A program made the translations under genes and the position numbers. A stretch of DNA of 64,000 bases from Arenimonas oryziterrae DSM 21050 = YC6267 (lineage in GTDB: Bacteria; Pseudomonadota; Gammaproteobacteria; Xanthomonadales; Xanthomonadaceae), in NCBI RefSeq assembly GCF_000420545.1, contig NZ_ATVD01000002.1, forward strand, positions 310,001-374,000, in the 5' to 3' direction. The notes beneath the pieces are model-generated. The model was not told the origin of the DNA and made no database searches. It saw only the letters and a program-made list of their open reading frames with translations. Shown here one piece after another: positions 19,332 through 43,588 of this stretch; within the stretch, counting starts at the first letter, position 1; each line of letters starts with the position of its first letter.

Positions 19332-20657
19332 ATGACCGACCAGGCCACAGACTCCGCTGACAACGTCTTGTCCAAACGTACGACGCCTACCTGGGACATG
19401 GAGCTGCTGATCTCCGGCGCTACCACCATCGGTCTGTTGCAATTGCCGGGGCTGATGGACGAAGTTTTCCTCGATGCGATCAACCGCAGTGCCGACGAAA
19501 TCCTGCGGGTGATCATGCCCTTGTGGACCTACGCGAAGTTCGCGTTGTTCACCTTGATCGCGACCTTTGTCATGCACCTGTGCCTGCGCGGCTACTGGAT
19601 CGCGCTGGTCGGCATGAACTCGGTGTATCCCGGCGGGGTGCGTTGGAACAACCTGAAGATGGGCCCGCATTCGCGTGCGATCAGCGAAAAGGAATCGCCG
19701 GCGATGGCCGAGGTCATCGAAGCCGCCGACAACCGCGCGACGCGCGTGTTCGGGCTGGGATTCGGCATGGCGATGGTCATGCTGATGCCCGTGGCGATAG
19801 CGCTGCTGGTCCTGACCTCGGCCTTGCTGGCACGTCATTTCTTTCACATCAACATCGATGCGCTGAAAGTTTTCGCCATCGTCCTGGCGGTCGTGATCCT
19901 GCCCTGGGCGCTGCTGAGCTTCGTCGACCGCCAATATGGAGACCGCTTCGCGCCAGACCATTGGCTGTCGCGGGCGATGCGCCGGCTGCTGGCGATGTAC
20001 AGCCGCGTCGGCATCGGACGGCGCAACAACTTGTTGCTGACGCTGTACACCAGCCACGAAGGCGCGCAGCGCGCCAGCCTGGTCATCGTGCTGGCGATGG
20101 TGCCGATCTTCGCCGTGGTCTTCGTGCAGTCGGTGATGGCTTCCGTCGGATTTTCCTACGGCGACTTCGACGGCCTGCCGGACGACACGATGTACGCTGC
20201 CAACAGCGCGCAACCGGAGTTCTACGACAGTTCGCGCAATGGCGACGCCGCCCTGGGCCTGCTCGCGCCGTTCATTCCCAATCGCGTGGTGCGCGGGCCG
20301 TATCTGGAATTGTTCGTCCCCTACCTGCCGCGCCGGCATACGCCGGCGATGCAGCGCGCCTGCCCGGATGCACTCGCGGAAATGATCGCGGCCAATGAAG
20401 ACAACACCGATGTCGGTTCGCGTGCGGCGTTCGATTGCCTGGCGCGGCTGCACGACATCCAGTTGGACGGCTTGCCGGTCGCCGTGACTTTCGACGCCAG
20501 CGCCGACCCGAAGACCGGCCAGCGCGGCATGCTGGCGATGATCCCGGTGCGCGATCTCGCCGCAGGCCGGCACGAACTGAGCGTTGCCGCGATCACGCGC
20601 ACGAGTGCGAAGAAAGAACTGCCCGTGCGCCGCTATCGGATCATTTTCTGGAAATGA
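19332..20657 (+). CDS. Four-helix membrane protein of unknown function
   Basis: A 441-residue protein with four probable membrane helices at about residues 68-94, 140-167, 178-199 and 249-272. The C-terminal about 170 residues are soluble (QPEFYDSSRNGDAAL onward) and end in a short beta-rich tail, RYRIIFWK. No catalytic motif or family is recognised. It is divergent from the 18507 gene with 114 bases between, and convergent with the oligomer hydrolase 16 bases downstream. Confidence 0.65.
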   Translation: MTDQATDSADNVLSKRTTPTWDMELLISGATTIGLLQLPGLMDEVFLDAINRSADEILRVIMPLWTYAKFALFTLIATFVMHLCLRGYWIALVGMNSVYPGGVRWNNLKMGPHSRAISEKESPAMAEVIEAADNRATRVFGLGFGMAMVMLMPVAIALLVLTSALLARHFFHINIDALKVFAIVLAVVILPWALLSFVDRQYGDRFAPDHWLSRAMRRLLAMYSRVGIGRRNNLLLTLYTSHEGAQRASLVIVLAMVPIFAVVFVQSVMASVGFSYGDFDGLPDDTMYAANSAQPEFYDSSRNGDAALGLLAPFIPNRVVRGPYLELFVPYLPRRHTPAMQRACPDALAEMIAANEDNTDVGSRAAFDCLARLHDIQLDGLPVAVTFDASADPKTGQRGMLAMIPVRDLAAGRHELSVAAITRTSAKKELPVRRYRIIFWK

Positions 20658-20673: not shown

Positions 20674-22521
20674 CTAAGGCATCCGGCCGAGATGATCCGC
20701 GCTCAGCGGAGCCAGCACGCCGTTGACGAACGCGCGGGGCGTGGTCGCGATGTCGGCATCGCCCGGCAAGGGTTTTCCTTCGGCGACATGCGCCCACATC
20801 GCATCGAGACCGCGGTAGGCATAGGGCAGCATCGGCAGGTAGCGCGCACCGAGCACCGGCAAGCCCAGGAACGCATCGAAATGCTGCGCGTTGTGCACGC
20901 GCCAGTAGCGGACATCGCGGCCACGGGCACTCGCCCAACGCGCGTAGGCGGCGCCGCTGAAAGCTTCCGGAATCAATCCGTCGTCGACGCCGTGCATGAC
21001 CAGCACCGGCAGATTCTTTCGCGGCAAGCGCGCGCGGGTGGCGGCCACCGATGCACGCACGGTGTCGGCCGGCGCCGACTTGTCGGTCCATAGCGCGCGC
21101 AGGCACTGCAGGCCAGGCAAGGCATCGCTGGTGTCGCCCGCCTTCGCATCGAGCAAGGTCACGCCGGCACCCGGCGGAATGCCGGAGCTGTCGCTCCACC
21201 AGGCGGCGCGTTCCTTGTCGGCGTTGGCAGAACGCAACCCGTCCTTGCCGAGCGCAGTGAAACGATAGCCGCAGGGCATGGTGCCGGCGTCCGCGCGCGC
21301 ATAAGCGGAGGCGTAGGTGACTGCCACCGTGCGCCACAGATCGAAACTCGTACTGATCGCGCCGGCGGCGAGCGCCTCGTCGGTCCAGCCCTGCGCGTGC
21401 AGGATTTGCCGCGCCTGCTCGGCCTGCGCCATCGGCGTGTCGCCGGTCAGCCGTCCCTGTGCCTTCAATGCTGCGCAGCGTGCGATCCCAGCCGGCGCGG
21501 GCTGGCCACCGGGCCGGGCCATCGCCACGCCATCGAAGGTCGGCGCGGCGAGCGCGCAGGACATCCAGATCGCCGCCTCCGTCGTGTAGTCAAACAGCGG
21601 TCGCCCGCCCTCGCCCGGGAACACGTTCGGCGAGATCGCGACCACGCCGTCGAGCCAGTCGCCATCGAGTTCCGCCGCGCGCAACACCGCGCCGCCGCCA
21701 TTAGAAACGCCGACCGCGATCACGCGCGTATTCGCGAAGGTGTATGGGCCGCCGTCGGGGAAACCGCTCTGCAGCACGCCCAAGGCGAACTCGGCGGCTT
21801 GCTTCACATGCCGGCCCCAATCGGCCTCGGGATTGTCGCCCGAATGGGCATGCTTGACCGCGACCGGCGCGAGACCGGCGCCGGTGTATTTGGCGATGTC
21901 GAATTCGACGGCGTCGCCCGGTTCGGCCCGCGTGCCGTCCAGACGTGTTCCCACGCCGTCTGCCGTGTCGACGAACCCGGTGCCAGTACCCTTGTCGGTG
22001 TAGGCGACTGCACAGCCATGGCTCAAGCCCCAGGCGCCGGCGAGCGCGATGCCCCCGTAGATGCCGCGCGACCCGGACGAGGCGTTGACGACGATGCAGC
22101 GTTTGCCGGCGTCGAACGCATCAGGCAATTGCACCATCACCCGATGCGGTTGCTTCGCGCCGGGCAGGCGCACCAGCGCCTGATACTCGCGACCAGGCAC
22201 CGGCGCGAGCGATCCGTACAGCTCGCCATAGCCGCCACCGGGCGCGAGATCGGCGATGCCGCGCCAGTTCGACCAGATCGCGCGACGGCGCAGTTCCTGC
22301 GGCGTGGGATGCGCAGCGTCGGCGAACGCTGGCGGCAGCGGACTGCGCAATCCCGCCGTGCCCAGTCCGGCAGTAAGAAGGTCGTCGCCCTCGCGGTGCG
22401 ACTGCAGGGCGATGCCGGCGACGAGTTTCATTTCCTTGGCCTTTGCCGGCGCGGTAGCGACGGAAACCAGTGCGGCGAGGGCCGCGAGCGGGAACAGCAG
22501 ACGCGAGGCGATCGGGTTCAT
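20674..22521 (-). CDS. D-(-)-3-hydroxybutyrate oligomer hydrolase
   Basis: A 615-residue exported hydrolase with signal peptide (residues 1-28, ending AKA|KE). The blocks VVNASSGSRGIYG, LSHGCAVAYTDKGTGTG and the nucleophile elbow GVSNGGGAVL (Ser273) are those of the 3HB-oligomer hydrolase family. An acid residue and histidine are expected in VMHGVDDGLIP and VHNAQHFDAF. It cleaves oligomers released from poly-3-hydroxybutyrate to 3-hydroxybutyrate. The length is a little below the usual about 690 residues. It is divergent from the 3HB dehydrogenase gene, with a dyad operator candidate between them. Confidence 0.88.
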   Translation of the reverse strand: MNPIASRLLFPLAALAALVSVATAPAKAKEMKLVAGIALQSHREGDDLLTAGLGTAGLRSPLPPAFADAAHPTPQELRRRAIWSNWRGIADLAPGGGYGELYGSLAPVPGREYQALVRLPGAKQPHRVMVQLPDAFDAGKRCIVVNASSGSRGIYGGIALAGAWGLSHGCAVAYTDKGTGTGFVDTADGVGTRLDGTRAEPGDAVEFDIAKYTGAGLAPVAVKHAHSGDNPEADWGRHVKQAAEFALGVLQSGFPDGGPYTFANTRVIAVGVSNGGGAVLRAAELDGDWLDGVVAISPNVFPGEGGRPLFDYTTEAAIWMSCALAAPTFDGVAMARPGGQPAPAGIARCAALKAQGRLTGDTPMAQAEQARQILHAQGWTDEALAAGAISTSFDLWRTVAVTYASAYARADAGTMPCGYRFTALGKDGLRSANADKERAAWWSDSSGIPPGAGVTLLDAKAGDTSDALPGLQCLRALWTDKSAPADTVRASVAATRARLPRKNLPVLVMHGVDDGLIPEAFSGAAYARWASARGRDVRYWRVHNAQHFDAFLGLPVLGARYLPMLPYAYRGLDAMWAHVAEGKPLPGDADIATTPRAFVNGVLAPLSADHLGRMP

Positions 22522-22556
22522 CGCCGCAAGATAGCAACCGTCGCACGGTCCGGCAT

Positions 22557-22571
22557 CGTACTTTGGTACAG
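22557..22571 (+). promoter_or_regulatory. Candidate operator, GTAC-N4-GTAC dyad, copy 1
   Basis: The sequence CGTACTTTGGTACAG lies 57 bases upstream of the dehydrogenase ATG and 35 bases from the divergent hydrolase ATG. It shares 12 of 15 positions with copy 2 at 30021-30035, in the same orientation. The best guess is a binding site for the adjacent CrbR-like regulator; this is inference. Confidence 0.6.
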
Positions 22572-22628
22572 GCGTCGCGCCCGGATGCCCTTGTTAGTGT
22601 GCGCAATCGGCTTCATCGGGTCCCGCGC

Positions 22629-23438
22629 ATGTCCGAAAACTTCCTCATCGGCCGAAACGCCCTGGTCACCGGCGGCACGTCGGGCATCGGCCTGGCGATC
22701 GCCACGGCCCTGGGACGCGCCGGCGCACGCGTGGCGATCAACGGCCTGGGCGACGGCGCGCAGATCCTCGCCGCCTTGACCGACATCCTCGCCGAGGGCG
22801 CGACCGATGCGCGACATTTCCCCGCCGATCTGCGCGACGCCGCGGCGATCGAAGCGATGGTCACCGATTGCACGGCCTGGGGCGCCCCGGACATCGTCGT
22901 CAACTGCGCAGGCATTCAGCACACCGCCGCGCTCGCCGACATGCCGGCAGCAACCTGGGACGCGATGATCGCGGTGAACCTGAGCGCGGCCTTCCACACG
23001 CTGCGCCTCACCCTGCCCGGCATGGCCGCCCGCGGTTTCGGTCGCGTGGTCAACATCGCTTCGGTGCACGGGCTCGTCGCTTCGCTGAACAAGGCGCCGT
23101 ATGTCGCCAGCAAGTTCGGACTGATCGGACTGAGCAAGGTCGCGGCGCTGGAATACGCGGCGGCCGGCACGCGCAGCAGCGGCGGCGTGACGATCAACTG
23201 CCTGTGCCCGGGCTGGGTGGAGACGCCGCTGATCGAACCGCAGATCGCCGCACGCGCCGCCGCGGTCGGCGGCGGCCGCGACGAGGGCGTGCGCGAACTG
23301 CTGCGCGAAAAACAGCCGAGCCAACGCACCTCGCTGCCGGAGGAAATCGCGCAGGCGGTGCTGTGGCTGTGCCGCGCCGAATCGCACAATCTGACCGGTG
23401 CGGCGATTCCGATCGACGGCGGCTGGACGGCGCAATAG
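22629..23438 (+). CDS. bdhA: 3-hydroxybutyrate dehydrogenase (SDR family)
   Basis: A 269-residue classical short-chain dehydrogenase from the ATG at 22629. The cofactor motif is TGGTSGIG, then NCAGIQHTA. The catalytic Ser is in NIASVHG and Tyr-Lys in YVASKFG. NCAGIQH, GWVETPLIEPQ and LLREKQPS are characteristic of D-3-hydroxybutyrate dehydrogenases. It oxidises 3-hydroxybutyrate to acetoacetate with NAD. It sits divergent to the oligomer hydrolase and 69 bases before a response regulator on the same strand. Confidence 0.9.
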   Translation: MSENFLIGRNALVTGGTSGIGLAIATALGRAGARVAINGLGDGAQILAALTDILAEGATDARHFPADLRDAAAIEAMVTDCTAWGAPDIVVNCAGIQHTAALADMPAATWDAMIAVNLSAAFHTLRLTLPGMAARGFGRVVNIASVHGLVASLNKAPYVASKFGLIGLSKVAALEYAAAGTRSSGGVTINCLCPGWVETPLIEPQIAARAAAVGGGRDEGVRELLREKQPSQRTSLPEEIAQAVLWLCRAESHNLTGAAIPIDGGWTAQ

Positions 23439-23507
23439 TCTGCGAACAGCCGTGTTCCGCATGCGCCGATCCGCCTGCCGATGCCGTCCACGCATTAGAC
23501 TCGGCTC

Positions 23508-24176
23508 ATGACCCGCCTGCTCGTCGCCGACGACCATCCCCTGTATCGCCTCGCGTTGACGCAGGCCGTGCACGGCATCCTGCCCGACGCCGATATTCGT
23601 GAGGCCGGCGATCTCGCGGGCGCGCAGGCCGCGCTCGCGGCGCATCCCGATACCGATCTGGTCCTGCTCGACCTGCACATGCCCGGCAGTCATGGCCTCA
23701 TGGGGCTGGCGACCTTGCGCGCCGAACATCCTGGCGTCGCCGTGGTGATGATTTCCGCGCACGACGATCCGCTCACGATCCGGCGTGCGCTCGCGCACGG
23801 CGCGGCCGGCTATCTGACCAAACGCGCGAACCTCGAGGACTTGCAGCAGGGCTTACGCGCCGTGCTCGCCTGCGAGGAATGGCTGCCCCCGGGCGTACGC
23901 GAGGCCGTCGCCGCGATCGCGATCGATCCGCAGGACGCCCACATTGCTGCTCGCCTGGCGTCGCTGAGTCCGCAACAGTTCAAGGTGCTCGCACGCGTCG
24001 CCGAGGGCCGCCTCAACAAGCAGATCGCCGACGAACTCGGCATCCAGGAACGCACGGTCAAGGCCCATATGAGTGCGATCTTCGAAAAACTCGCGGTGCG
24101 CAATCGCACGCAGGCCGGTGTGTTGCTGCGCTCGCTCGAACTCGGCGACCCGAGCAAGTCCGTCGCGCCGGACTGA
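23508..24176 (+). CDS. crbR: NarL/LuxR-type response regulator (CrbR-like)
   Basis: A 222-residue regulator. The receiver domain (1-120) has the acidic pair in VADDHP, phosphoacceptor Asp in LVLLDLHMPG and Lys in YLTKRA. The C-terminal LuxR helix-turn-helix reads GRLNKQIADELGIQERTVKAH. It is convergent with, and 12 bases from, a hybrid kinase of CrbS architecture. CrbS/CrbR pairs in Pseudomonas and Vibrio control acetate and related carbon use. Here the pair is embedded among 3-hydroxybutyrate genes. The symbol rests on that pairing and is not certain. Confidence 0.85.
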   Translation: MTRLLVADDHPLYRLALTQAVHGILPDADIREAGDLAGAQAALAAHPDTDLVLLDLHMPGSHGLMGLATLRAEHPGVAVVMISAHDDPLTIRRALAHGAAGYLTKRANLEDLQQGLRAVLACEEWLPPGVREAVAAIAIDPQDAHIAARLASLSPQQFKVLARVAEGRLNKQIADELGIQERTVKAHMSAIFEKLAVRNRTQAGVLLRSLELGDPSKSVAPD

Positions 24177-24188
24177 TCGTCCGCAGAC

Positions 24189-27100
24189 TCAGGACGTCAC
24201 CGCCAGCAGGCGCGCCATCATCGACTTCAACGCGAGCGGCTTGAGCGGCTTGTAGAGCAGTTGCGCGCCCGCCGCCGCCACGGCCAGGCGCACCGCTTCG
24301 CTGTGATCGGCGGTGATGACCACGCAGGGACGCGAAGGCATCAGGCCCTGCAGGCGCTCGCGCAATTGCAGGCCGGTGTGGTCGCGGTCGAGGTGATAGT
24401 CGAGCAGCAGCAGATCGGGCGTGGCTGCGCGCACGGCGTCCTCGGCCTCGTCGGCGTCGCGTGCGGCGAGCACTTCGCACTGCCAGCCCGACAGCAGGGC
24501 CTGCATCGCACGCAGCACATCCAGATCGTTGTCGACGACCAGCACGCGGCTGCGCGGCGCTTCCGGCGGCGCGGCGGACGTGCCGGGAACCGCGACCGGC
24601 TGCGCTGCCGCACGCGGCACATCGACGCAGAACATCGCCCCGTGCCCGAGACGCGAACGCAGGCCCAGCCGATGGCCGAGCAGGCGCGCGATGCGTTCGG
24701 AAATCGCCAGGCCCAGACCGAGTCCCTGGCCGCCGCGATCGAGCCGGCGGAATTCCTCGAAGATCACCTGCTGGTCGGCCTCGGCGATGCCCGGACCGGT
24801 GTCGTGCACTTCGATCGACAACTGCGCGCCGTGACGACGGCAGCCGATCAGGATGCGACCCTGCGCGGTATAGCGCACGGCATTGGCGAGAAAATTCTGC
24901 AGCACGCGACGCAGCAACTGCGGATCGCTGCGCACCCAGGCGCGCGTCGGCACGCAGTCCAGACGCAGGCCCTTCTCGTGCGCAAGTACGCCGAATTCGG
25001 CCGCGAGGTGCTGCAGGACTTCGTCGAGGCGGAACACCTGGATGCTCGGCGCCATGCCGCCGGCGTCGAGGCGCGAGATGTCGAGCAGCCCCGACAACAG
25101 GCTCTCGGCGGACCCGAGCGCGCCGTCGATATTGGCCACGCCAGCGCGGTACTGCGGATGCTCGAGCTGCTGCGCGAGCGCATGGGTGAACAGATGCGCG
25201 GCATTCAGCGGCTGTGCGAGGTCATGGCTGACGGCGGCCAGAAAGCGCGTCTTCGCGCGATTGGCACGCTCGGCTTCGGCTTTCGCACCTTCAAGTTCGG
25301 CGGTACGCGCGACTACGCGCTGTTCCAGGGTTTCGGCGACGCGCTTGAGTTCGTCCTCGCTGCGCCGGAAATCGGTGACGTCGGTGAAGGTGGCGACGAA
25401 GCCGCCGCCGGGCATCGGATTGCCGCGGATCTCGACCATCGCTTCGCCAAAGCGCCGCTCGGTGACATAAGGCGTGCCCGCGCGCATGTGCGCGATGCGC
25501 TTGCGTACTTCCCGATCATCGAGGCGATCGTCGAAGCGATCGTCGAGGCGATTGCCCGCCAGCCCACGACGCACGTTGTAGGCGAGCAGATCGACCACCG
25601 GCACGCCGACGCGCAGCAACTCGCCCGGATAGCCGAACAGTTCGGCGTAGCGACGGTTCCAGGCGACCAGACGCAGCTCGGCATCGACCACGCTGATGCC
25701 CTGGCTCATGTTTTCCAACGCTGCTTCCAGCACGCGCTGGTTGAAGCGCAGCGCCTGCGAGGCCTCGCCGACGATGGTGGCGACGGTATCGAGATCGCGG
25801 CCCTGCTCGCGGCGCGCGGCGTCGAGCAGCAGGCGGGCCGACGCGGCACCGAGCACCGCGGCCAGTTCACGTTCGATGCGTTGTTCGACGAGCAGCGGCA
25901 CCGCACCCTCGCCGGGCGCGTCGTTCAAGGCCAGGCGCACGCGCTCTTCGGGCAGGAAGCGCGCCGCGACCTCGTGCAAGGTCACCCGCGCGAAGCCCGC
26001 TTCGGCGATCACTTCCGGCGAGGTGCCGCGCCGGCTCGCATCGAGCCAGGTCACCGCCGCACCGGCGATCAGACTTAGCGTGACGCCGCGACCGAGCCGG
26101 CTCCAGGTGTCGAGACCGAGCAAGCCGTCGGGCGCAAGCCAGGTCAACCCCATCGGGCCGGCCCGCAGCCAGTGCGTCGATGCGCCGAAGCCCTCCACGA
26201 GCACGGGCACGAGCAACGCCCAAGCCCAGACGAGCACGGCGACGAATACGCCGAGCATGACTGACCTCGGTGGCGTCTGCGGGCGCCACACGGCGAACGC
26301 CACCGCCGGCGCCAGCGTCGCGAGACCGGAGAACGACACCGCACCGATGTCAGCCAGCGCGTCGCTGCCGGCAATCGCGCGACTGTAGAGCCAGGCGAGC
26401 AGTACGACCGCGAGAATGCCGACGCGACGCTGCATCAGCACCGCGCCGCGCAGATCGCCGCCCTCGCCCACGCCGCGCGAGGTCCAGCGCCCGCGCACGA
26501 GCAAGGGCGTCAGCCAGTGGTTGCCGATCATCACACTCAGCGCCAGCGTCGCCAGGATCACCATGCCTGTGGCGGCGCTGAGACCGCCGAGGAAGGCGAG
26601 CAAGGCGAGACCCTCGTGGCCCTGCGACAGCGGCAAGGCGAGCACGTACAGATCCGAGGGCACGCCCTGGGGTGCCAGCAAGGCATCGCCGGCGCGCGCG
26701 AGCGGCAGGATCGGCAACGCGATCAGCAACATGTACAGCGGGAACAACCAGCGCGCGGTGCGCAAATGGCGATCGTCCCGGCACTCGACCACGCCGACGT
26801 GGAATTGGTGCGGCAAGGTGAACATCGCCAGGGCGCCGAGCAGGATCAGTGCGGGAAAGCCGCTCGCATCGTTCGGCGGAAGCTGTGCGGGATCGATCGC
26901 CGGCAGCGTCGGCCCGGTCCAGACGAAGAAGCCCAGCGCCAGCATCGCACCGAGTTTGAGCAGCGATTCCACGGCCATCGCCAGCACGAGGCCACGGTTG
27001 TGTTCGATCGCCGACGCGCGCCGCGTGCCGAACAGCATCGCGAACAAGGCCATCGCCAACGCGACGTAAAGAGCGCTGTCTTGCCAGGGTGCGGGCGAGA

Positions 27101-27548
27101 TCGCCGCCGTGCGCGTGAGCAGGCCGAAGCTCATCGCCACGGCTTTGAGCTGCAGCGCGATGTAGGGAATGATGCCCATCACTGCGACGAAGGTCACCAG
27201 CGCGGCCAGTCCGGAGCTCTTGCCCAGGCGCGTGGCGATGAGGTCGGCAATCGACGTGGAATTCTGTTCGTGCGCGATGCGTTGCAGGCGACGCAGGAAA
27301 CCGAAGCCGAACAGGTACAACAGGATCGTGCCGATAAAGGTCGGCGGAATCGGCCAGCCGGAACGCTGTGCCTGGGTGACGGTGCCGTAGAAGGTCCACG
27401 ACGTGCAATAGACGGCGAGCGAGAGGCTGTAGACCACCGGCCAGCGCGAACCGAGCAGGCCGGCGCGGCGTTCGGCCCACAGCGCGGTGCCGAACAACAG
27501 GCCCAGCCAGGCCAGGGACGCGAGGACGACGAGGAGATTGCTCAGCAT
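24189..27548 (-). CDS. crbS: Hybrid sensor histidine kinase with N-terminal sodium/solute symporter domain (CrbS-like)
   Basis: A 1119-residue protein. Residues 1-500 form a solute:sodium symporter-like domain with about 12-13 membrane helices. A linker follows, then a PAS domain at about 605-735 (LENMSQGISVVDAELRL), a histidine kinase domain with His775 in AAVSHDLAQPLN, the ATPase N box (NFLANAVRYT) and G boxes (DTGPGIA, GLGLGLAIS), then a receiver domain with Asp1050 (LLLLDYHLDRD) and Lys1100. This is the CrbS/MxtR arrangement, with transport or sensing fused to phosphorelay. A tandem RxDD-type repeat lies in the PAS region. Confidence 0.92.
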   Translation of the reverse strand: MLSNLLVVLASLAWLGLLFGTALWAERRAGLLGSRWPVVYSLSLAVYCTSWTFYGTVTQAQRSGWPIPPTFIGTILLYLFGFGFLRRLQRIAHEQNSTSIADLIATRLGKSSGLAALVTFVAVMGIIPYIALQLKAVAMSFGLLTRTAAISPAPWQDSALYVALAMALFAMLFGTRRASAIEHNRGLVLAMAVESLLKLGAMLALGFFVWTGPTLPAIDPAQLPPNDASGFPALILLGALAMFTLPHQFHVGVVECRDDRHLRTARWLFPLYMLLIALPILPLARAGDALLAPQGVPSDLYVLALPLSQGHEGLALLAFLGGLSAATGMVILATLALSVMIGNHWLTPLLVRGRWTSRGVGEGGDLRGAVLMQRRVGILAVVLLAWLYSRAIAGSDALADIGAVSFSGLATLAPAVAFAVWRPQTPPRSVMLGVFVAVLVWAWALLVPVLVEGFGASTHWLRAGPMGLTWLAPDGLLGLDTWSRLGRGVTLSLIAGAAVTWLDASRRGTSPEVIAEAGFARVTLHEVAARFLPEERVRLALNDAPGEGAVPLLVEQRIERELAAVLGAASARLLLDAARREQGRDLDTVATIVGEASQALRFNQRVLEAALENMSQGISVVDAELRLVAWNRRYAELFGYPGELLRVGVPVVDLLAYNVRRGLAGNRLDDRFDDRLDDREVRKRIAHMRAGTPYVTERRFGEAMVEIRGNPMPGGGFVATFTDVTDFRRSEDELKRVAETLEQRVVARTAELEGAKAEAERANRAKTRFLAAVSHDLAQPLNAAHLFTHALAQQLEHPQYRAGVANIDGALGSAESLLSGLLDISRLDAGGMAPSIQVFRLDEVLQHLAAEFGVLAHEKGLRLDCVPTRAWVRSDPQLLRRVLQNFLANAVRYTAQGRILIGCRRHGAQLSIEVHDTGPGIAEADQQVIFEEFRRLDRGGQGLGLGLAISERIARLLGHRLGLRSRLGHGAMFCVDVPRAAAQPVAVPGTSAAPPEAPRSRVLVVDNDLDVLRAMQALLSGWQCEVLAARDADEAEDAVRAATPDLLLLDYHLDRDHTGLQLRERLQGLMPSRPCVVITADHSEAVRLAVAAAGAQLLYKPLKPLALKSMMARLLAVTS
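25514..25549. repeat. Three-copy 12-base tandem repeat inside the sensor kinase gene
   Basis: Units GATCATCGAGGC, GATCGTCGAAGC and GATCGTCGAGGC. In frame on the minus strand they encode a charged repeat within the PAS domain (about residues 667-680, RLDDRFDDRLDDRE). Length change in multiples of four residues would keep the frame. Confidence 0.75.
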
Positions 27549-27606
27549 GCGTTTGCTTCAACCGCGCGATGCGTGTTCGATCCCGAGAATAGCGCAACCC
27601 GCGGGC

Positions 27607-27633
27607 AAAAAAGACGGGCCGCCGAAGCGGCCC
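27607..27633 (-). terminator. Terminator of the TonB receptor gene
   Basis: GGGCCGC / GCGGCCC stem with a four-base loop. On the minus strand it is followed by GTCTTTTTT. It lies about 30 bases after the receptor stop codon and separates the receptor from the kinase gene. Confidence 0.85.
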
Positions 27634-27661
27634 GGGGGAAAGTGATCGCCCGTTACTGCCC

Positions 27662-29932
27662 TTAGAACTCGTAACGCGCCGACAAGGTCACCTGGCGTGG
27701 GTTGCCATAGAAGCCGGTGCGCACACCGGTCGACGGAATGACGTAGCCCGTGGTCAGGTACTGTTTGTCGCGCAGGTTGCTGCCTTGCAGGGAGAAGCTC
27801 CAGGGCGTGGCGGTTTTCCACTGAATGCCGGCGCTCAGCAAGCCGTAGCCGTCCTGATGGATGGGCTTGGTGGTGGCGCCGGTGATCGGATCGCGCACGA
27901 CTTCGGTCGTCGCGGTGACCTCGCTCTGGTAGCTGTAGCCCACGCGGAAGCTCAGCTTGCCGCCGTCATGCAGCGGCTGGATGTATTCGACGTTCAAGGC
28001 GCCGGACAGATCCGGGGCATTGGTGAATTCCTGCTGGTCGGCGATGTTGACGGCCTTGAACATGTATTCGTCGAACTTTGCATTGAGGGTCGCGACATTG
28101 CCGCTGATCGACCAGTGCTCGGTCGGACGCACCTGCAGCTCGACCTCGACGCCCGAAACGGTGCCCTTGCCGGCATTGGTGAAGTCGGCGCAGAAGGTCG
28201 GCACGCTGCTCACGATGCAGGAAGTGAACACCGACAGCTGGATGTCCTTGTACTTGTTGTGGAAGTAGGCGACGTTGAGGAACATGCGCTGGTCGAGGAA
28301 GGCCATCTTGCTGCCGACTTCGAGGCTGTCGACCTGCTCGTCGTCGTAAGGCTCCTGCGAATTGGGCAGCACGCTGGCGCGGATGTTGTAGCCGCCGGAT
28401 TTGAAGCCGCGCGCGAACAGGCCGTAGAACAGCACGTCGTCGGTCGCCTGATAGTCGAGCGAGATTTTCGGCGACAGATTGATGAAGGTCTTGGACTTGT
28501 CGAAACCGACCGTGAGCGTCGGCACGCTGAAGCTGTCGTTGGCATAGCTGCGGTTGAGCACGTGCGCAGATTTTTCTTCCTTCGTCCAGCGCAGGCCACC
28601 GCTGATGCTGAACTTGTCGGTGAAGTCGTAGCTCCAGTCGCCGTAGACCGCGATGCTGCGGGTATCGACTTCGCCGCGTGTGTCGCCGAACTGGCCGCCA
28701 AAACCCGGTCCCGGCGGCGCCGGGAAGAACGGCGGGATGTCGGCGCCCTTGAGGAAGATGTTCTGCACCAGGCCGCCGGCCGTGCCCTTGAACCAGTAAA
28801 CGCCGAACACGCCGTGGCTCTTGCCGGCCGCGTCGTAGGACGCCTGCAGTTCCTGGCTGAGCTGGTCGTCGTTATAGAACGCCTTCACATCGGTGAGCTG
28901 CGCCTGCAGCGTGTCGAAATCGATGTAGGTCGCGGTGTCGGACTCGCGCCAGGCGGTGATCGACTTGAAGCTCCAGTTGTCGTTCGGGCGCCAGTTCATC
29001 GTCAGCGAGGAACCGCTGAGCGTGGTCTCGTTGACATTGGGCATGCCGTTGCGCACGTCGTAGCGGCTGCTCAGCGGCAGATTGTCGGGGTTGGCGGGGT
29101 CGCGCACGTTCGTGGTGAGCATCTGCGCGCCGCGCACGCCGGAGTCGTCCTTGGCGTAGTCGTAGCTCAGGCGCGCGTCGAAGCGGCCGCTATCGGAGAA
29201 ATAGCCGCCGGTGAAGCGCAGCGCCTGGATGTCCTTGTCGCTGACATCTTCGCCAGTGACGATGTTGTGGCCGAAGCCATCGCGATTGAGGCTGGCCACG
29301 GCCAGGCGCATGCGCACGTTGTCACCGACCGGTCCGCCGATGGCGCCCTTGAAATCGCGCTCGCTGAAGTTGCCGAGGCCGACTTCTGCGAAGCCCTCGA
29401 CTTCCTTGGGCAGGTCGCGGGAAATGTATTTGATGGCACCGCCGACGGTGTTCTTGCCGTACAGCGTGCCCTGCGGACCGCGCAGTACCTCGATGCGACC
29501 CACGTCGAACACGTCGAGCAGGCCGCCCTGCGGGCGCGCCACGTAGACGTCGTCCAGATAGATGCCCACACCCGGATCGACGCCCCAGAGCGGATCGGAC
29601 TGGCCGACGCCGCGAATGTAGGCGGTGATCGTGCTGTTGGAACCACGCGCGGCGTACAGCGTCAGGTTCGGCACCTGCGCGTCGAGATCGCCCAGGTCGC
29701 GGATATTGAGCTTATCGAGCAGTTCGGGTGTGAAGGCAGTGACCGCGACCGGCACCTCCTGCAGCGTTTCTTCGCGACGACGCGCGGTGACCTTGACGCT
29801 TTCGAGCGTGGTCGCGGTGTCGGTCGGCTTGTCGCCCGCCGCGGTCGGCGACGAGGCGCCGTCCTGGGCTTGCACGGTGCCGGACATCGCCAGAACCAGG
29901 CCGATCGCGAGGCTGAGGTGGTTGCGCTTCAT
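27662..29932 (-). CDS. TonB-dependent outer-membrane receptor
   Basis: A 756-residue protein from the ATG at 29932, which has GGGAG just upstream. Signal peptide 1-22 (VQA|QD). A TonB-box-like segment, ESVKVTARRREE, leads into the plug domain (about 50-170; PVAVTAFTPE, GVGIYLDDVYVARPQG, RIEVLRGPQGTLYGKN). The beta-barrel ends in LSARYEF with a terminal Phe. Substrate is unknown. Position between the kinase and a GntP permease, with the shared dyad in its upstream region, suggests a link to 3-hydroxybutyrate oligomer uptake, though siderophore-type cargo cannot be excluded. Confidence 0.92.
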   Translation of the reverse strand: MKRNHLSLAIGLVLAMSGTVQAQDGASSPTAAGDKPTDTATTLESVKVTARRREETLQEVPVAVTAFTPELLDKLNIRDLGDLDAQVPNLTLYAARGSNSTITAYIRGVGQSDPLWGVDPGVGIYLDDVYVARPQGGLLDVFDVGRIEVLRGPQGTLYGKNTVGGAIKYISRDLPKEVEGFAEVGLGNFSERDFKGAIGGPVGDNVRMRLAVASLNRDGFGHNIVTGEDVSDKDIQALRFTGGYFSDSGRFDARLSYDYAKDDSGVRGAQMLTTNVRDPANPDNLPLSSRYDVRNGMPNVNETTLSGSSLTMNWRPNDNWSFKSITAWRESDTATYIDFDTLQAQLTDVKAFYNDDQLSQELQASYDAAGKSHGVFGVYWFKGTAGGLVQNIFLKGADIPPFFPAPPGPGFGGQFGDTRGEVDTRSIAVYGDWSYDFTDKFSISGGLRWTKEEKSAHVLNRSYANDSFSVPTLTVGFDKSKTFINLSPKISLDYQATDDVLFYGLFARGFKSGGYNIRASVLPNSQEPYDDEQVDSLEVGSKMAFLDQRMFLNVAYFHNKYKDIQLSVFTSCIVSSVPTFCADFTNAGKGTVSGVEVELQVRPTEHWSISGNVATLNAKFDEYMFKAVNIADQQEFTNAPDLSGALNVEYIQPLHDGGKLSFRVGYSYQSEVTATTEVVRDPITGATTKPIHQDGYGLLSAGIQWKTATPWSFSLQGSNLRDKQYLTTGYVIPSTGVRTGFYGNPRQVTLSARYEF

Positions 29933-30020
29933 GGACTCCCCTTTGTTTCTTATGGATAGCTGCGGACGGCCGGTCGGCCGGTTACAGCGCAGCCTAGGTT
30001 CGTGCCACCGCGGACGCACT

Positions 30021-30035
30021 TGTACCTTCGTACAG
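30021..30035 (+). promoter_or_regulatory. Candidate operator, GTAC-N4-GTAC dyad, copy 2
   Basis: The sequence TGTACCTTCGTACAG forms a perfect TGTAC/GTACA dyad. It lies 56 bases upstream of the permease ATG at 30092 and 88 bases from the divergent TonB receptor ATG. Orientation and distance match copy 1 at 22557-22571 upstream of the dehydrogenase. Confidence 0.6.
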
Positions 30036-30091
30036 TGTGCCCGCCCACCGCCAATGCCGACACTCCACGCCATGCATGCAGGGAGCGGATG

Positions 30092-31489
30092 ATGGATTTT
30101 GTGATCGTGTTGGCGGCGCTGTGCTTCCTGATGTTCGTCGCCTATCGCGGCTACAGCGTGATCCTGTTCGCTCCCGTCGCTGCGCTAGGCGCGGTGCTGC
30201 TCACCGATCCGGGCCTGGTCGCGCCGATGTTCACCGGCCTGTTCATGGACAAGATGGTCGGCTTCCTAAAGCTGTACTTTCCGGTGTTCGTGCTCGGCGC
30301 GATATTCGGCAAGCTGATCGAGCTCGCCGGTTTCTCGCAAGCGATCGTCGGCGCCACCATTCGCGTGCTCGGGCGTAGCCGGGCGATGCTGTCTATCGTG
30401 GCGGTCTGCGCCCTGCTCACCTACGGCGGTGTTTCGTTGTTCGTGGTGGTGTTCGCGGTCTATCCCTTCGCTGCAGAGATGTTCCGCCAGAGCGATATCC
30501 CCAAGCGCCTGATTCCCGCGACGATCGCGCTCGGTGCGTTTACCTTCACGATGGATGCCCTGCCGGGCACACCGCAGATCCAGAACATCATCCCGACCTC
30601 GTTCTTCGGCACGACCGCCTGGGCCGCGCCCTGGTTGGGCACGATCGGCGCGTTGTTCATCCTGGCGGTCGGCTTGAGCTATCTGGAATGGCGTCGGCGT
30701 TCGGCCCTCGCGGCGGGCGAAGGCTATGGCGGCGATCTGGTCAACGAACCGGCGCCGTTCTCCGGCGAACGCCTGGTCAACCCCTTGATCGCCCTGTTGC
30801 CGCTGGTGCTGGTAGGCGTGAGCAACAAGGCGTTCACCACGCTGATTCCGCAGTTCTACGGCGCCAGCCACGAATTTCTTCCCGCCGTCATCGGTGATGC
30901 GAAACCGGTCGTGCAGGAGGTCGCGAAGGTCGCGGCGATCTGGGCGGTCGAAGGCGCCTTGCTGATCGGCATCCTCACGGTCCTGGCATTCGCCTGGAAA
31001 CCGGTCATGAAAAGCTTTGCAGAAGGCTCGAAAGCCGCGATCGGTGGCGCGTTGCTCGCATCGATGAATACCGCTTCCGAATACGGCTTCGGCGCGGTGA
31101 TCGCGTCCCTGCCCGGCTTCCTGGTCGTTGCGAACGCGTTGAAGGCGATTCCCGATCCACTGGTCAACGAAGCGATCAGCGTGACCGCGCTTGCCGGCAT
31201 CACCGGTTCGGCCTCGGGCGGCATGAGCATTGCGCTGGCCGCCATGTCCGAAACTTTCATCGCCAACGCCCAGGCGGCGCATATTCCGATGGAGGTGCTG
31301 CATCGCGTGGCTGCGATGGCCTCCGGCGGCATGGACACGTTGCCGCACAACGGCGCGGTGATCACCCTGCTCGCCGTCACCGGTTTGACCCACCGGCAGA
31401 GCTACAAGGACATCTTCGCGATCACCCTGGTCAAGACGATGGCGGTGTTCGTGGTCATCGTGGCGTTCTACCTGACCGGCCTGGTGTAG
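30092..31489 (+). CDS. GntP-family permease, probably 3-hydroxybutyrate transporter
   Basis: A 465-residue polytopic carrier of the gluconate/H+ symporter (GntP) family. The ATG at 30092 has GGGAG six bases upstream; an overlapping ATG at 30089 is only three bases from it. Family features are the many helices, FTMDALPGTPQIQNIIPT, the NTASEYGFGAVIAS segment and GGMDTLPHNGAVITLL. GntP carriers move small hydroxy-acids. A D-beta-hydroxybutyrate permease function fits the surrounding hydrolase and dehydrogenase genes but is inferred from context. Confidence 0.85.
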   Translation: MDFVIVLAALCFLMFVAYRGYSVILFAPVAALGAVLLTDPGLVAPMFTGLFMDKMVGFLKLYFPVFVLGAIFGKLIELAGFSQAIVGATIRVLGRSRAMLSIVAVCALLTYGGVSLFVVVFAVYPFAAEMFRQSDIPKRLIPATIALGAFTFTMDALPGTPQIQNIIPTSFFGTTAWAAPWLGTIGALFILAVGLSYLEWRRRSALAAGEGYGGDLVNEPAPFSGERLVNPLIALLPLVLVGVSNKAFTTLIPQFYGASHEFLPAVIGDAKPVVQEVAKVAAIWAVEGALLIGILTVLAFAWKPVMKSFAEGSKAAIGGALLASMNTASEYGFGAVIASLPGFLVVANALKAIPDPLVNEAISVTALAGITGSASGGMSIALAAMSETFIANAQAAHIPMEVLHRVAAMASGGMDTLPHNGAVITLLAVTGLTHRQSYKDIFAITLVKTMAVFVVIVAFYLTGLV

Positions 31490-42073: not shown

Positions 42074-43588
42074 TTACAGCTTGGTCGCGGCGAGCTGGCT
42101 GACCAGCTGGCTGACGGAGGCGTCCATCAGATCGGTGAGCGGCTTCGGATAAACGCCGAGCGCCAGCGTGCCGATCGCGAAAATTCCCAGTACCCAGGCC
42201 TCGCGGCTGCCGATATCGGTCAACTCGGCGACGTGGTGGTTGGCCACGGGCCCGAAGATCACGCGCTTGACCATCCACAGCGTGTACGCGGCGCCCAGCA
42301 CCAAGGTGGTGGCCGCGGCGAATGCAACGAGCGGGCTTTGCTGGAACGCAGCGAGGATGACCATGAATTCGCCGACGAAACCCGAGGTGCCCGGCAAGCC
42401 GGCATTGGCCATCGCGAAAAACACGAAAAACGCGGCGAACCACGGCATCGTATTCACGACACCGCCGTAGTCCTTGATCATGCGGCTGTGCATGCGGTCG
42501 TACAGCACGCCCACGCAAGTGAACATCGCGCCGGACACGAAGCCGTGCGAGATCATCTGCACCATGGCGCCCTGCAGGCCCAGACGGGCCGCATCGAGAT
42601 TGCTGTACTCACGTACCAGCGCGAAGGCGATGAAGGTGCCGAGCGTGACGAAGCCCATGTGCGCGATCGACGAATACGCGATCAGCTTCTTCATGTCCTG
42701 CTGCACCAGGGCCACGAAGCCGATGTACACGACCGCGATCAGCGACAGCGCGATGACGACCCAGGCGTACTCATGGCTGGCATCGGGCGTGATCGGCAGC
42801 GAGAAGCGCACGAAGCCGTAACCGCCGATCTTCAGCATGATCGCCGCCAGCACGACCGAGCCGCCGGTCGGCGCCTCGACGTGCGCATCGGGCAACCAGG
42901 TGTGCACCGGCACCATCGGGACTTTCACCGCGAACGCCGCAAGGAAGGCGAAGAACAACCAGGCCTGCTCGGTCGCAGTGAGCGGCAACGCGGTCATGTC
43001 GCTGAGCTGCCAGCTGCCACCCTTCAGGTACAGATAGACCAGGCCGACCAGCATGAACACCGAGCCGAGGAAGGTGTACAGGAAGAACTTCACGCTCGCG
43101 TAAACGCGCTTCGGGCCGCCCCAGACGCCGATGATGATGAACATCGGGATCAGCATGGCTTCGAAGAACACGTAGAACAGCAGCCCATCCAGCGCGCAGA
43201 ACACGCCGATCATCAGGCCTTCGAGGATCAGGAAGCTGGCGAAGTACTGGTGCACGCGACGATCGATCGAATTCCACGAGCCCAGCAGCACGAGGATCGT
43301 GGTCAGCGTGGTCAACCCGATCAGCGCGACCGAGATGCCATCCACGCCGAGGTTGTAGCCGATGTGGAAACTCGGGATCCAGGCGTGGCTTTCGGCGAAC
43401 TGCATCGTCGGCACCGAGGTGTCGAGGCCGGTGAACAGCGGCAGGCACAGGGCGAAGCTCGCGATGGCGATCAGCAGCGCGAACGACTTCGCCTGCGCGG
43501 CCCGTTGGTCGCCGAAAAAGAGCGTCGCCGCGCCGCCGAGTATCGGCAGCCAGATCAGCAGGGTCAGCAGCGGCCAGGACGAAAGCAT
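42074..43588 (-). CDS. nuoM: NADH-quinone oxidoreductase subunit M
   Basis: A 504-residue antiporter-like proton-pumping subunit. Conserved motifs: FFEAMLIPMFIIIGVWGG with the key Glu, KVPMVPVHTWLPDAHVEAPT with Lys, and QQDMKKLIAYSSIAHMGFV. It lies between nuoL and nuoN with short gaps. Confidence 0.97.
   Translation of the reverse strand: MLSSWPLLTLLIWLPILGGAATLFFGDQRAAQAKSFALLIAIASFALCLPLFTGLDTSVPTMQFAESHAWIPSFHIGYNLGVDGISVALIGLTTLTTILVLLGSWNSIDRRVHQYFASFLILEGLMIGVFCALDGLLFYVFFEAMLIPMFIIIGVWGGPKRVYASVKFFLYTFLGSVFMLVGLVYLYLKGGSWQLSDMTALPLTATEQAWLFFAFLAAFAVKVPMVPVHTWLPDAHVEAPTGGSVVLAAIMLKIGGYGFVRFSLPITPDASHEYAWVVIALSLIAVVYIGFVALVQQDMKKLIAYSSIAHMGFVTLGTFIAFALVREYSNLDAARLGLQGAMVQMISHGFVSGAMFTCVGVLYDRMHSRMIKDYGGVVNTMPWFAAFFVFFAMANAGLPGTSGFVGEFMVILAAFQQSPLVAFAAATTLVLGAAYTLWMVKRVIFGPVANHHVAELTDIGSREAWVLGIFAIGTLALGVYPKPLTDLMDASVSQLVSQLAATKL

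Follow-up and report, generated by a model that had tools for sequence, protein, structure and literature searches.

A candidate 3-hydroxybutyrate-oligomer scavenging regulon with its own CrbS/CrbR paralogue and a putative operator in Arenimonas oryziterrae

The stretch of DNA analyzed here, called the window, comprises 64,000 nucleotides of Arenimonas oryziterrae DSM 21050 = YC6267 (GCF_000420545.1, contig NZ_ATVD01000002.1, forward-strand positions 310,001-374,000), and all coordinates are positions of this window. At 20674-31489 it harbors a gene cluster that quite probably forms a regulon for scavenging 3-hydroxybutyrate (3HB) and 3HB oligomers under the control of a dedicated paralogue of CrbS/CrbR, the two-component system of the acetate switch, with an operator of its own. 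The cluster reads hydrolase (-), dehydrogenase (+), regulator (+), kinase (-), TonB-dependent receptor (-) and permease (+), followed by pnp (-), with regulator and kinase genes convergent, and it contains two divergent promoter regions, 22522-22628 and 29933-30088 (Table 1). A first-pass annotation had named these six genes, and open reading frames as well as profile matches confirmed them at their positions. Since the regulatory pair lies inside a gene set for fragments of polyhydroxybutyrate (PHB) and has its own apparent control site, it is probably a separate switch and not that of acetate.

Like CrbS/CrbR (MxtR/ErdR) of Pseudomonas and Vibrio, the pair consists of an SLC5-STAC-PAS-HK-REC hybrid kinase and a NarL/LuxR-type partner, whose gene adjoins that of the kinase. 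The kinase passes the model NF041832 (414 bits, cut-off 400), but it is only ~41-43% identical to Pseudomonas CrbS and falls into a separate clade. The cluster shares with the acetate switch an operator frame AC-N4-GT just upstream of the target genes; the site, however, is GTAC-N4-GTAC and not GAC-N4-GTC, the regulator has another recognition helix, and the 3HB genes carry the box whereas acs does not. The SLC5-STAC transceptor architecture is also found in CbrA/CbrB, which controls histidine use and carbon balance, and, as far as the accessible literature goes, in the pyruvate system RpuS/RpuR; the targets of both differ from those of the window system. CbrA is not known to carry a hybrid receiver.

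The new element is the palindrome GTAC-YTTS-GTAC, which both divergent promoters share. One copy, GTACTTTGGTAC, is centered ~43 bp from the hydrolase start and ~66 bp from the dehydrogenase start, the other, GTACCTTCGTAC, ~96 bp from the receptor start and ~62 bp from the permease start. The palindrome was first spotted by reading both intergenic stretches, the scans of the genome and of relatives came later, and its first test was therefore not blind. GTACNNNNGTAC occurs three times in the window against a shuffle mean of 0.07, and at six places in the 3.09 Mb genome, two of which are the divergent promoters of the cluster; the other four genomic GTACN4GTAC sites have spacers unlike the cluster pair. 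Another palindrome of the window, GTACTCACGTAC at 42605-42616, also has a spacer different from those in the cluster. Over 58 genomes, GTACYTTSGTAC was found 56 times, in 38 genomes, and with a gene start within 450 bp as context, 31 copies lie at the hydrolase/dehydrogenase/regulator junction and 13 at the receptor/permease junction. A backward-pattern control totals 25 over the same genomes, its letter order making it a rough yardstick only. When sites are graded by score, a value of at least 16 is reached at 36 of 37 hydrolase junctions (and by 5% of shuffled ones) and of at least 17 at 38 of 39 receptor/permease junctions (1.7% of shuffled), the exceptions being L043, which is cut by a contig end, and L077; the receptor/permease site often reads GTAC-N4-GGAC. 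Second copies of a species are left in these graded-score counts, as they are in the pocket-position, N-terminus and upstream-box counts below, and the upstream-box counts omit one stretch cut by a contig end, matches starting past residue 60 and acs matches below 70%. The hydrolase gene lies apart from crbS in eight of 40 genomes (G123 ~11 kb, G012 15 kb, G011 29 kb, G048 67 kb, G040 148 kb, G022 2.2 Mb, and G041 and G088 on another contig), and GTAC-N4-GTAC precedes it in six of these eight (L127-L130, L164, L165). The shared box, rare elsewhere, probably puts both promoters under a common regulator, for which the linked CrbR is the simplest candidate. This agrees with the earlier proposal that a CrbS/CrbR-like pair governs the cluster, which had overlooked that the pair is a separate paralogue with an operator and a recognition helix of its own.

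Judged by sequence comparison, the window pair is a paralogue of the acetate CrbS/CrbR, distinct from it. An SLC5-kinase match was found in 225 of 247 family genomes sampled, and the matches listed form two main tiers, ~60-78% identity (the window type) and ~42-47%, with one row of 49% between them. A second-tier kinase is present in 39 of the 58 compared genomes, in 30 of these within 25 kb of an acetyl-CoA-synthetase-type (PF16177) match. Leaving the window genome aside, 38 of 57 have an acetate-type or second-tier kinase in addition to the window type or in its place, which the first-pass annotation had not considered. At all 20 acs-crbS loci fetched, the partner regulator lies behind acs on the same strand and is convergent with crbS, which is the plan of the window, where crbR follows a dehydrogenase in the position of acs. 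In a kinase tree made with a quick method, 43 3HB-type and two diverged third-type rows make up one side of a branch with a support of 100 (Shimodaira-Hasegawa-like approximate likelihood ratio test, SH-aLRT), and a separate group outside it is made up of the family's 22 acs-linked rows, with which the window kinase does not cluster. The acs-linked row L184, from another family, neighbors the 3HB clade on a long branch. In the regulator tree, the family's acetate-type rows group together (100/97), and the third type is nested among the 3HB rows, at a point where long branches meet and the bootstrap is unsettled. This third CrbS paralogue, ~47% identical, stands at loci L173 and L174 beside a regulator and a receptor, with an AMP-binding ligase gene nearby; of the two loci, only L173 has the hydrolase among the searched genes, and their palindromes are GTACCTAGGTAC and GGACCTAGGTCC and the helix QLRTVKAH.

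The two paralogues also differ in the promoters they accompany. Among 34 regions upstream of acs, GAC-N4-GTC is present in 23 and the GTAC box in none. The former precedes 22 of 22 acs genes with an acetate-type regulator alongside and one of 12 from genomes that gave no acetate-type kinase match (Fisher 4e-8, uncorrected for kinship). This one is L152 (G036), where acs retains the site and no acetate-type CrbS was found in an assembly that is 94% complete. The acs-side site matches the published ACTU motif of Pseudomonas CrbR, which is also reported at acs in four of five Xanthomonas (PMC5715377). In the window genome itself, one SLC5-kinase and one CrbR were found and no acetate-type pair, the next regulator being 35% identical, and its acs (L010) has neither GAC-N4-GTC nor a GTAC box and no ACTU site within 260 bp. 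The ACTU sites of the published table, scanned on the window, gave weak matches only and none in the divergent promoters of the cluster, and the 25 copies of GACN4GTC in the window are as expected by chance. The recognition helix reads QERTVKAH in the 3HB type, each residue being present in 41 or 42 of 42 rows (Q180 in 41, R182 in 42), with one regulator gene counted twice (L075 = L130). The acetate type has SEATxKAH in 22 of 22 rows, hence S and A at these two positions, and ten of ten regulators of other families have S/T-EATxKAH and share A182. Residues 180 and 182 differ along with the box, their assignment to bases being putative.

The first-pass annotation had named a lack of conservation in relatives as what would speak against its proposal, and we found the linkage kept. 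Forty first-tier loci, mostly one per genus, were fetched from the better scores, so that the sample leans towards good matches; most have the gene order of the window, and eight lack the hydrolase in the fetched stretch. Adding 38 loci from a named collection, plus two that fall outside the family, gives 80; three of these duplicate a species already included, which leaves 77 distinct loci carrying a CrbS of this type. By tblastn (1e-20) over the whole fetched stretch, the hydrolase is present in 59, the regulator in 60, the receptor in 63 and the permease in 62 of these, all four in 47, and a dehydrogenase-like member of the short-chain dehydrogenase/reductase (SDR) family in 30; many of the missing genes are due to contig ends or split loci. 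The genera include Arenimonas, Lysobacter, Luteimonas, Rhodanobacter and Dyella, and all four genes are carried, among others, by A. donghaensis, A. caeni, Lysobacter prati, L. aestuarii, L. tolerans, Luteimonas arsenica, Pseudoxanthomonas winnipegensis, Rhodanobacter panaciterrae and Dyella marensis. Aquimonas voraii and Wenzhouxiangella limi have the kinase-receptor-permease half only in the stretch, and two more Wenzhouxiangella records the kinase only. PF10605 is present in 41 of 41 genomes picked for the CrbS orthologue, whereas 17 genomes picked for lacking it gave one full-strength and two partial matches (Fisher 2e-13 with partial matches taken as absent and kinship uncorrected). A PHB-depolymerase-like gene recurs in the cluster stretch of 19 of the 77 loci and in 0 of 106 other loci, sitting between kinase and receptor where read, and of four that were checked with Pfam three are above the cut-off and one is just below. 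Genes intervening between regulator and kinase do not recur across loci, apart from one short two-member group.

In the proposed mechanism, the TonB receptor would bring oligomers into the periplasm, the exported hydrolase would cut them to 3HB, the GntP-like permease would carry 3HB into the cytoplasm, and the dehydrogenase would convert it to acetoacetate, hydrolase and dehydrogenase acting according to their families. A SCOT-like CoA transferase elsewhere in the genome would then yield acetoacetyl-CoA, again by family function. CrbS, an SLC5-STAC transceptor kinase, would report the ligand and phosphorylate CrbR as expected from its family, and CrbR, bound to GTAC-YTTS-GTAC in both promoters, would switch on the hydrolase, dehydrogenase-crbR, receptor and permease genes. 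As crbR lies behind the box, 69 bp downstream of the dehydrogenase gene on the same strand, positive feedback would be expected. Given the terminator-like hairpin that separates the receptor gene from crbS, transcription from the boxed receptor promoter may not simply continue into crbS; such patterns number 12 in the region and 6.3 in shuffles. A sigma-70 scan gave no match. To call the cluster self-contained, as had been done, is too strong, since two adjacent CoA-transferase subunits (PF01144), likely the CoA step missing from the cluster, lie on another contig, contig 6, beside an AACS-like gene. This AACS-like gene (L011:7882-9417) adjoins both subunits and is open for 511 residues only; its relatives are usually longer, and it is possibly decayed. 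A genome search found neither a PHB synthase nor a PhaC_N match, and one PHB-esterase match elsewhere in the genome is just over the cut-off (23.9 versus 23 bits).

The window hydrolase clearly belongs to the PF10605 family of 3HB-oligomer hydrolases, the first of which was reportedly described in Ralstonia. Unlike that family, it would be exported (a signal peptide was judged by eye), stands within a two-component operon, and comes from a genome in which no PHB synthase was found. It has no lipobox, whereas its relatives usually do: by a simple rule, a lipobox-like Cys is present in 59 of the 72 N-termini aligned for comparison, which makes a periplasmic or membrane-held action likely.

The gene content suggests that CrbS may sense 3HB or an oligomer. 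Its symporter domain has no Pfam match, but the SLC5-STAC profile matches the solved CbrA chain 10ed_A (E 4.8e-104), and a model with a mean predicted local distance difference test (pLDDT) score of 85.6 has its best fold matches among SLC5 transporters, including SMCT1 (7sl9, TM 0.59/0.70). Human SMCT1 carries 3HB. The sodium/solute symporter domain of the first-pass annotation is thus upheld as SLC5-STAC, but "sodium" may be wrong, since K198 aligns with K196 of CbrA, the residue filling the sodium (Na2) site, and proton coupling is possible. For comparison with the histidine pocket of CbrA, which is described in the accessible part of a preprint (PMC13022988), the mapping is unsure beyond about residue 240 (601 versus 603 profile columns). 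At 29 positions altogether, the 81 3HB-type kinases can be told apart from both the 22 acetate-type and the 36 Pseudomonas kinases (90% each).

These positions bear on the strongest alternative, for which we see a substantial chance though well short of even: the pair would serve this gene set alone, yet its signal would be acetate, acetoacetate, a different hydroxy acid, or an intracellular cue received via PAS. Chimera work is reported, in the accessible part of PMC5715377, to show signaling independent of transport through SLC5, and K198 as well as the pocket positions 49, 51 and 52 are common to the window type and Pseudomonas-type CrbS. On the other hand, positions 56, 58, 70 and 71 separate both types, T56 and T58 lying near the break of transmembrane helix 2 (TM2), and two positions correspond to pocket or gate residues of CbrA. 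F71 stands for the pocket residue Y75, which is Tyr in acetate-type and Pseudomonas kinases, and I67 for the gate residue F71, with L/I/V in 26 of 27 3HB-type rows and F/Y in 13 of 13 Pseudomonas and other rows. The gene content, too, points to 3HB. Going beyond the regulon itself, we tentatively suggest, while thinking it rather doubtful as a whole, that the kinase directly binds 3HB or a short oligomer, arose by copying of acs-crbR-crbS with pocket, helix and operator changing together, and drives a PHB-oligomer TonB receptor, in an order-wide system for sensing and uptake of bioplastic fragments.

It is unlikely that the box is real but read by another, unlinked regulator while CrbR acts elsewhere. 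The pairing of box and CrbR is inferred from sequence, with the linked CrbR as the one regulator of the genome considered as a candidate; however, the ACTU site tested for Pseudomonas CrbR (PMC5715377) shares its AC-N4-GT frame with the box, and helix and box differ jointly between the paralogues. Moreover, genome G028 (L167) has a full hydrolase gene, no CrbS of this type and no box before the hydrolase, but two hydrolase genes in CrbS-bearing genomes are boxless as well. An ordinary acetate switch merely located beside 3HB genes is very improbable, for although domain order and the convergent crbR><crbS layout equal those of acs-linked systems, the pair is the only one found in the genome and L184 neighbors the 3HB clade, the window CrbS is in a separate clade, many relatives have a second, acs-linked type, the genome's own acs has neither box, and, in genomes that yielded no acetate-type CrbS, the GAC box is absent from 11 of 12 acs promoters and the GTAC box from all of them.

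A 3HB regulon under its own CrbS/CrbR has to be weighed against several further observations. The remaining 12 of the 56 boxes lie elsewhere than the two junctions, and 9 of 42 as well as 7 of 26 hydrolase starts lack the exact box. Even under the looser pattern GTAC-N4-GKAC, 3 of 41 and 1 of 28 permease starts have none. The apart hydrolases L163 and L166 (genomes G012 and G088) have no box despite this CrbS, and GAC-N4-GTC is found at 7 of 137 3HB-side starts, for which the chance level was not computed. Common descent inflates the counts across relatives. The regulator stays below the curated ErdR model NF041830 (210 bits, cut-off 390), and the dehydrogenase, which passes one curated model, misses TIGR01963 (264.5 bits, cut-off 307) and NF009931 (227.6, cut-off 340). 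Receptor and permease could carry other compounds, and binding of CrbR to the box, promoter activation and a role in growth on 3HB are putative, as read from the DNA.

Within the accessible open-licence literature, no report was found that links CrbS/MxtR/ErdR to 3HB control, the terms being unconnected in the passages compared, and the word "hydroxybutyrate" is absent from the accessible parts of PMC5715377, PMC9927547, PMC5436829 and PMC9100948. If the regulon is real, much of the Lysobacterales would possess dedicated sensing and uptake of PHB fragments with a readable operator that predicts targets, and the PF10605 family would gain an extracellular-scavenging role in bacteria without PHB synthase. 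Since the acetate and 3HB paralogues coexist in many genomes, ligand choice by SLC5-STAC sensors and the insulation of two sister two-component systems would be testable in one cell.

Table 1. Features of the cluster and its flank in window coordinates.
Feature	Position	Strand	Basis or remark
Candidate accessory gene, 441-aa membrane protein without Pfam match	19332..20657	+	relatives near cluster
3HB-oligomer hydrolase (PF10605)	20674..22521	-	431 bits, cut-off 27; GxSxG serine motif = GVSNG
Palindrome GTACTTTGGTAC, proposed CrbR operator of hydrolase / dehydrogenase-regulator divergent promoter	22558..22569	.	sequence
SDR family 3-hydroxybutyrate dehydrogenase	22629..23438	+	NF009093 263.4 bits (cut-off 258)
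CrbR-like NarL/LuxR response regulator	23508..24176	+	likely phospho-acceptor D55; recognition helix QERTVKAH (residues 180-187)
CrbS-like SLC5-STAC-PAS-HisKA-HATPase-REC hybrid kinase	24189..27548	-	H775, REC D1050 by motif; K198 at Na2-site position
Terminator-like hairpin in the receptor-kinase gap, with 8 G-C pairs and a T tract	27615..27634	-	pattern scan
TonB-dependent receptor (plug + barrel)	27662..29932	-	domain matches
Palindrome GTACCTTCGTAC, proposed CrbR operator of receptor / permease divergent promoter	30022..30033	.	sequence
GntP-like inner-membrane permease	30089..31489	+	family assigned through relatives only

The permease had been assigned to the GntP family. The window protein itself has no Pfam match even at E<=10, and the assignment is tentative, by way of a 34% identical relative in locus L172 that passes PF02447 (44.5 bits, cut-off 22.5); a 35% identical relative in L045 has no match. 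Relatives of the 441-aa membrane protein accompany this cluster in 9 of the 77 loci, with a tandem arrangement at L126; none of 106 other loci has one. The gene pnp, which adjoins the permease gene in the window, is present in the fetched stretch of 8 of the 77 loci, so that the cluster may have long occupied this chromosomal site.

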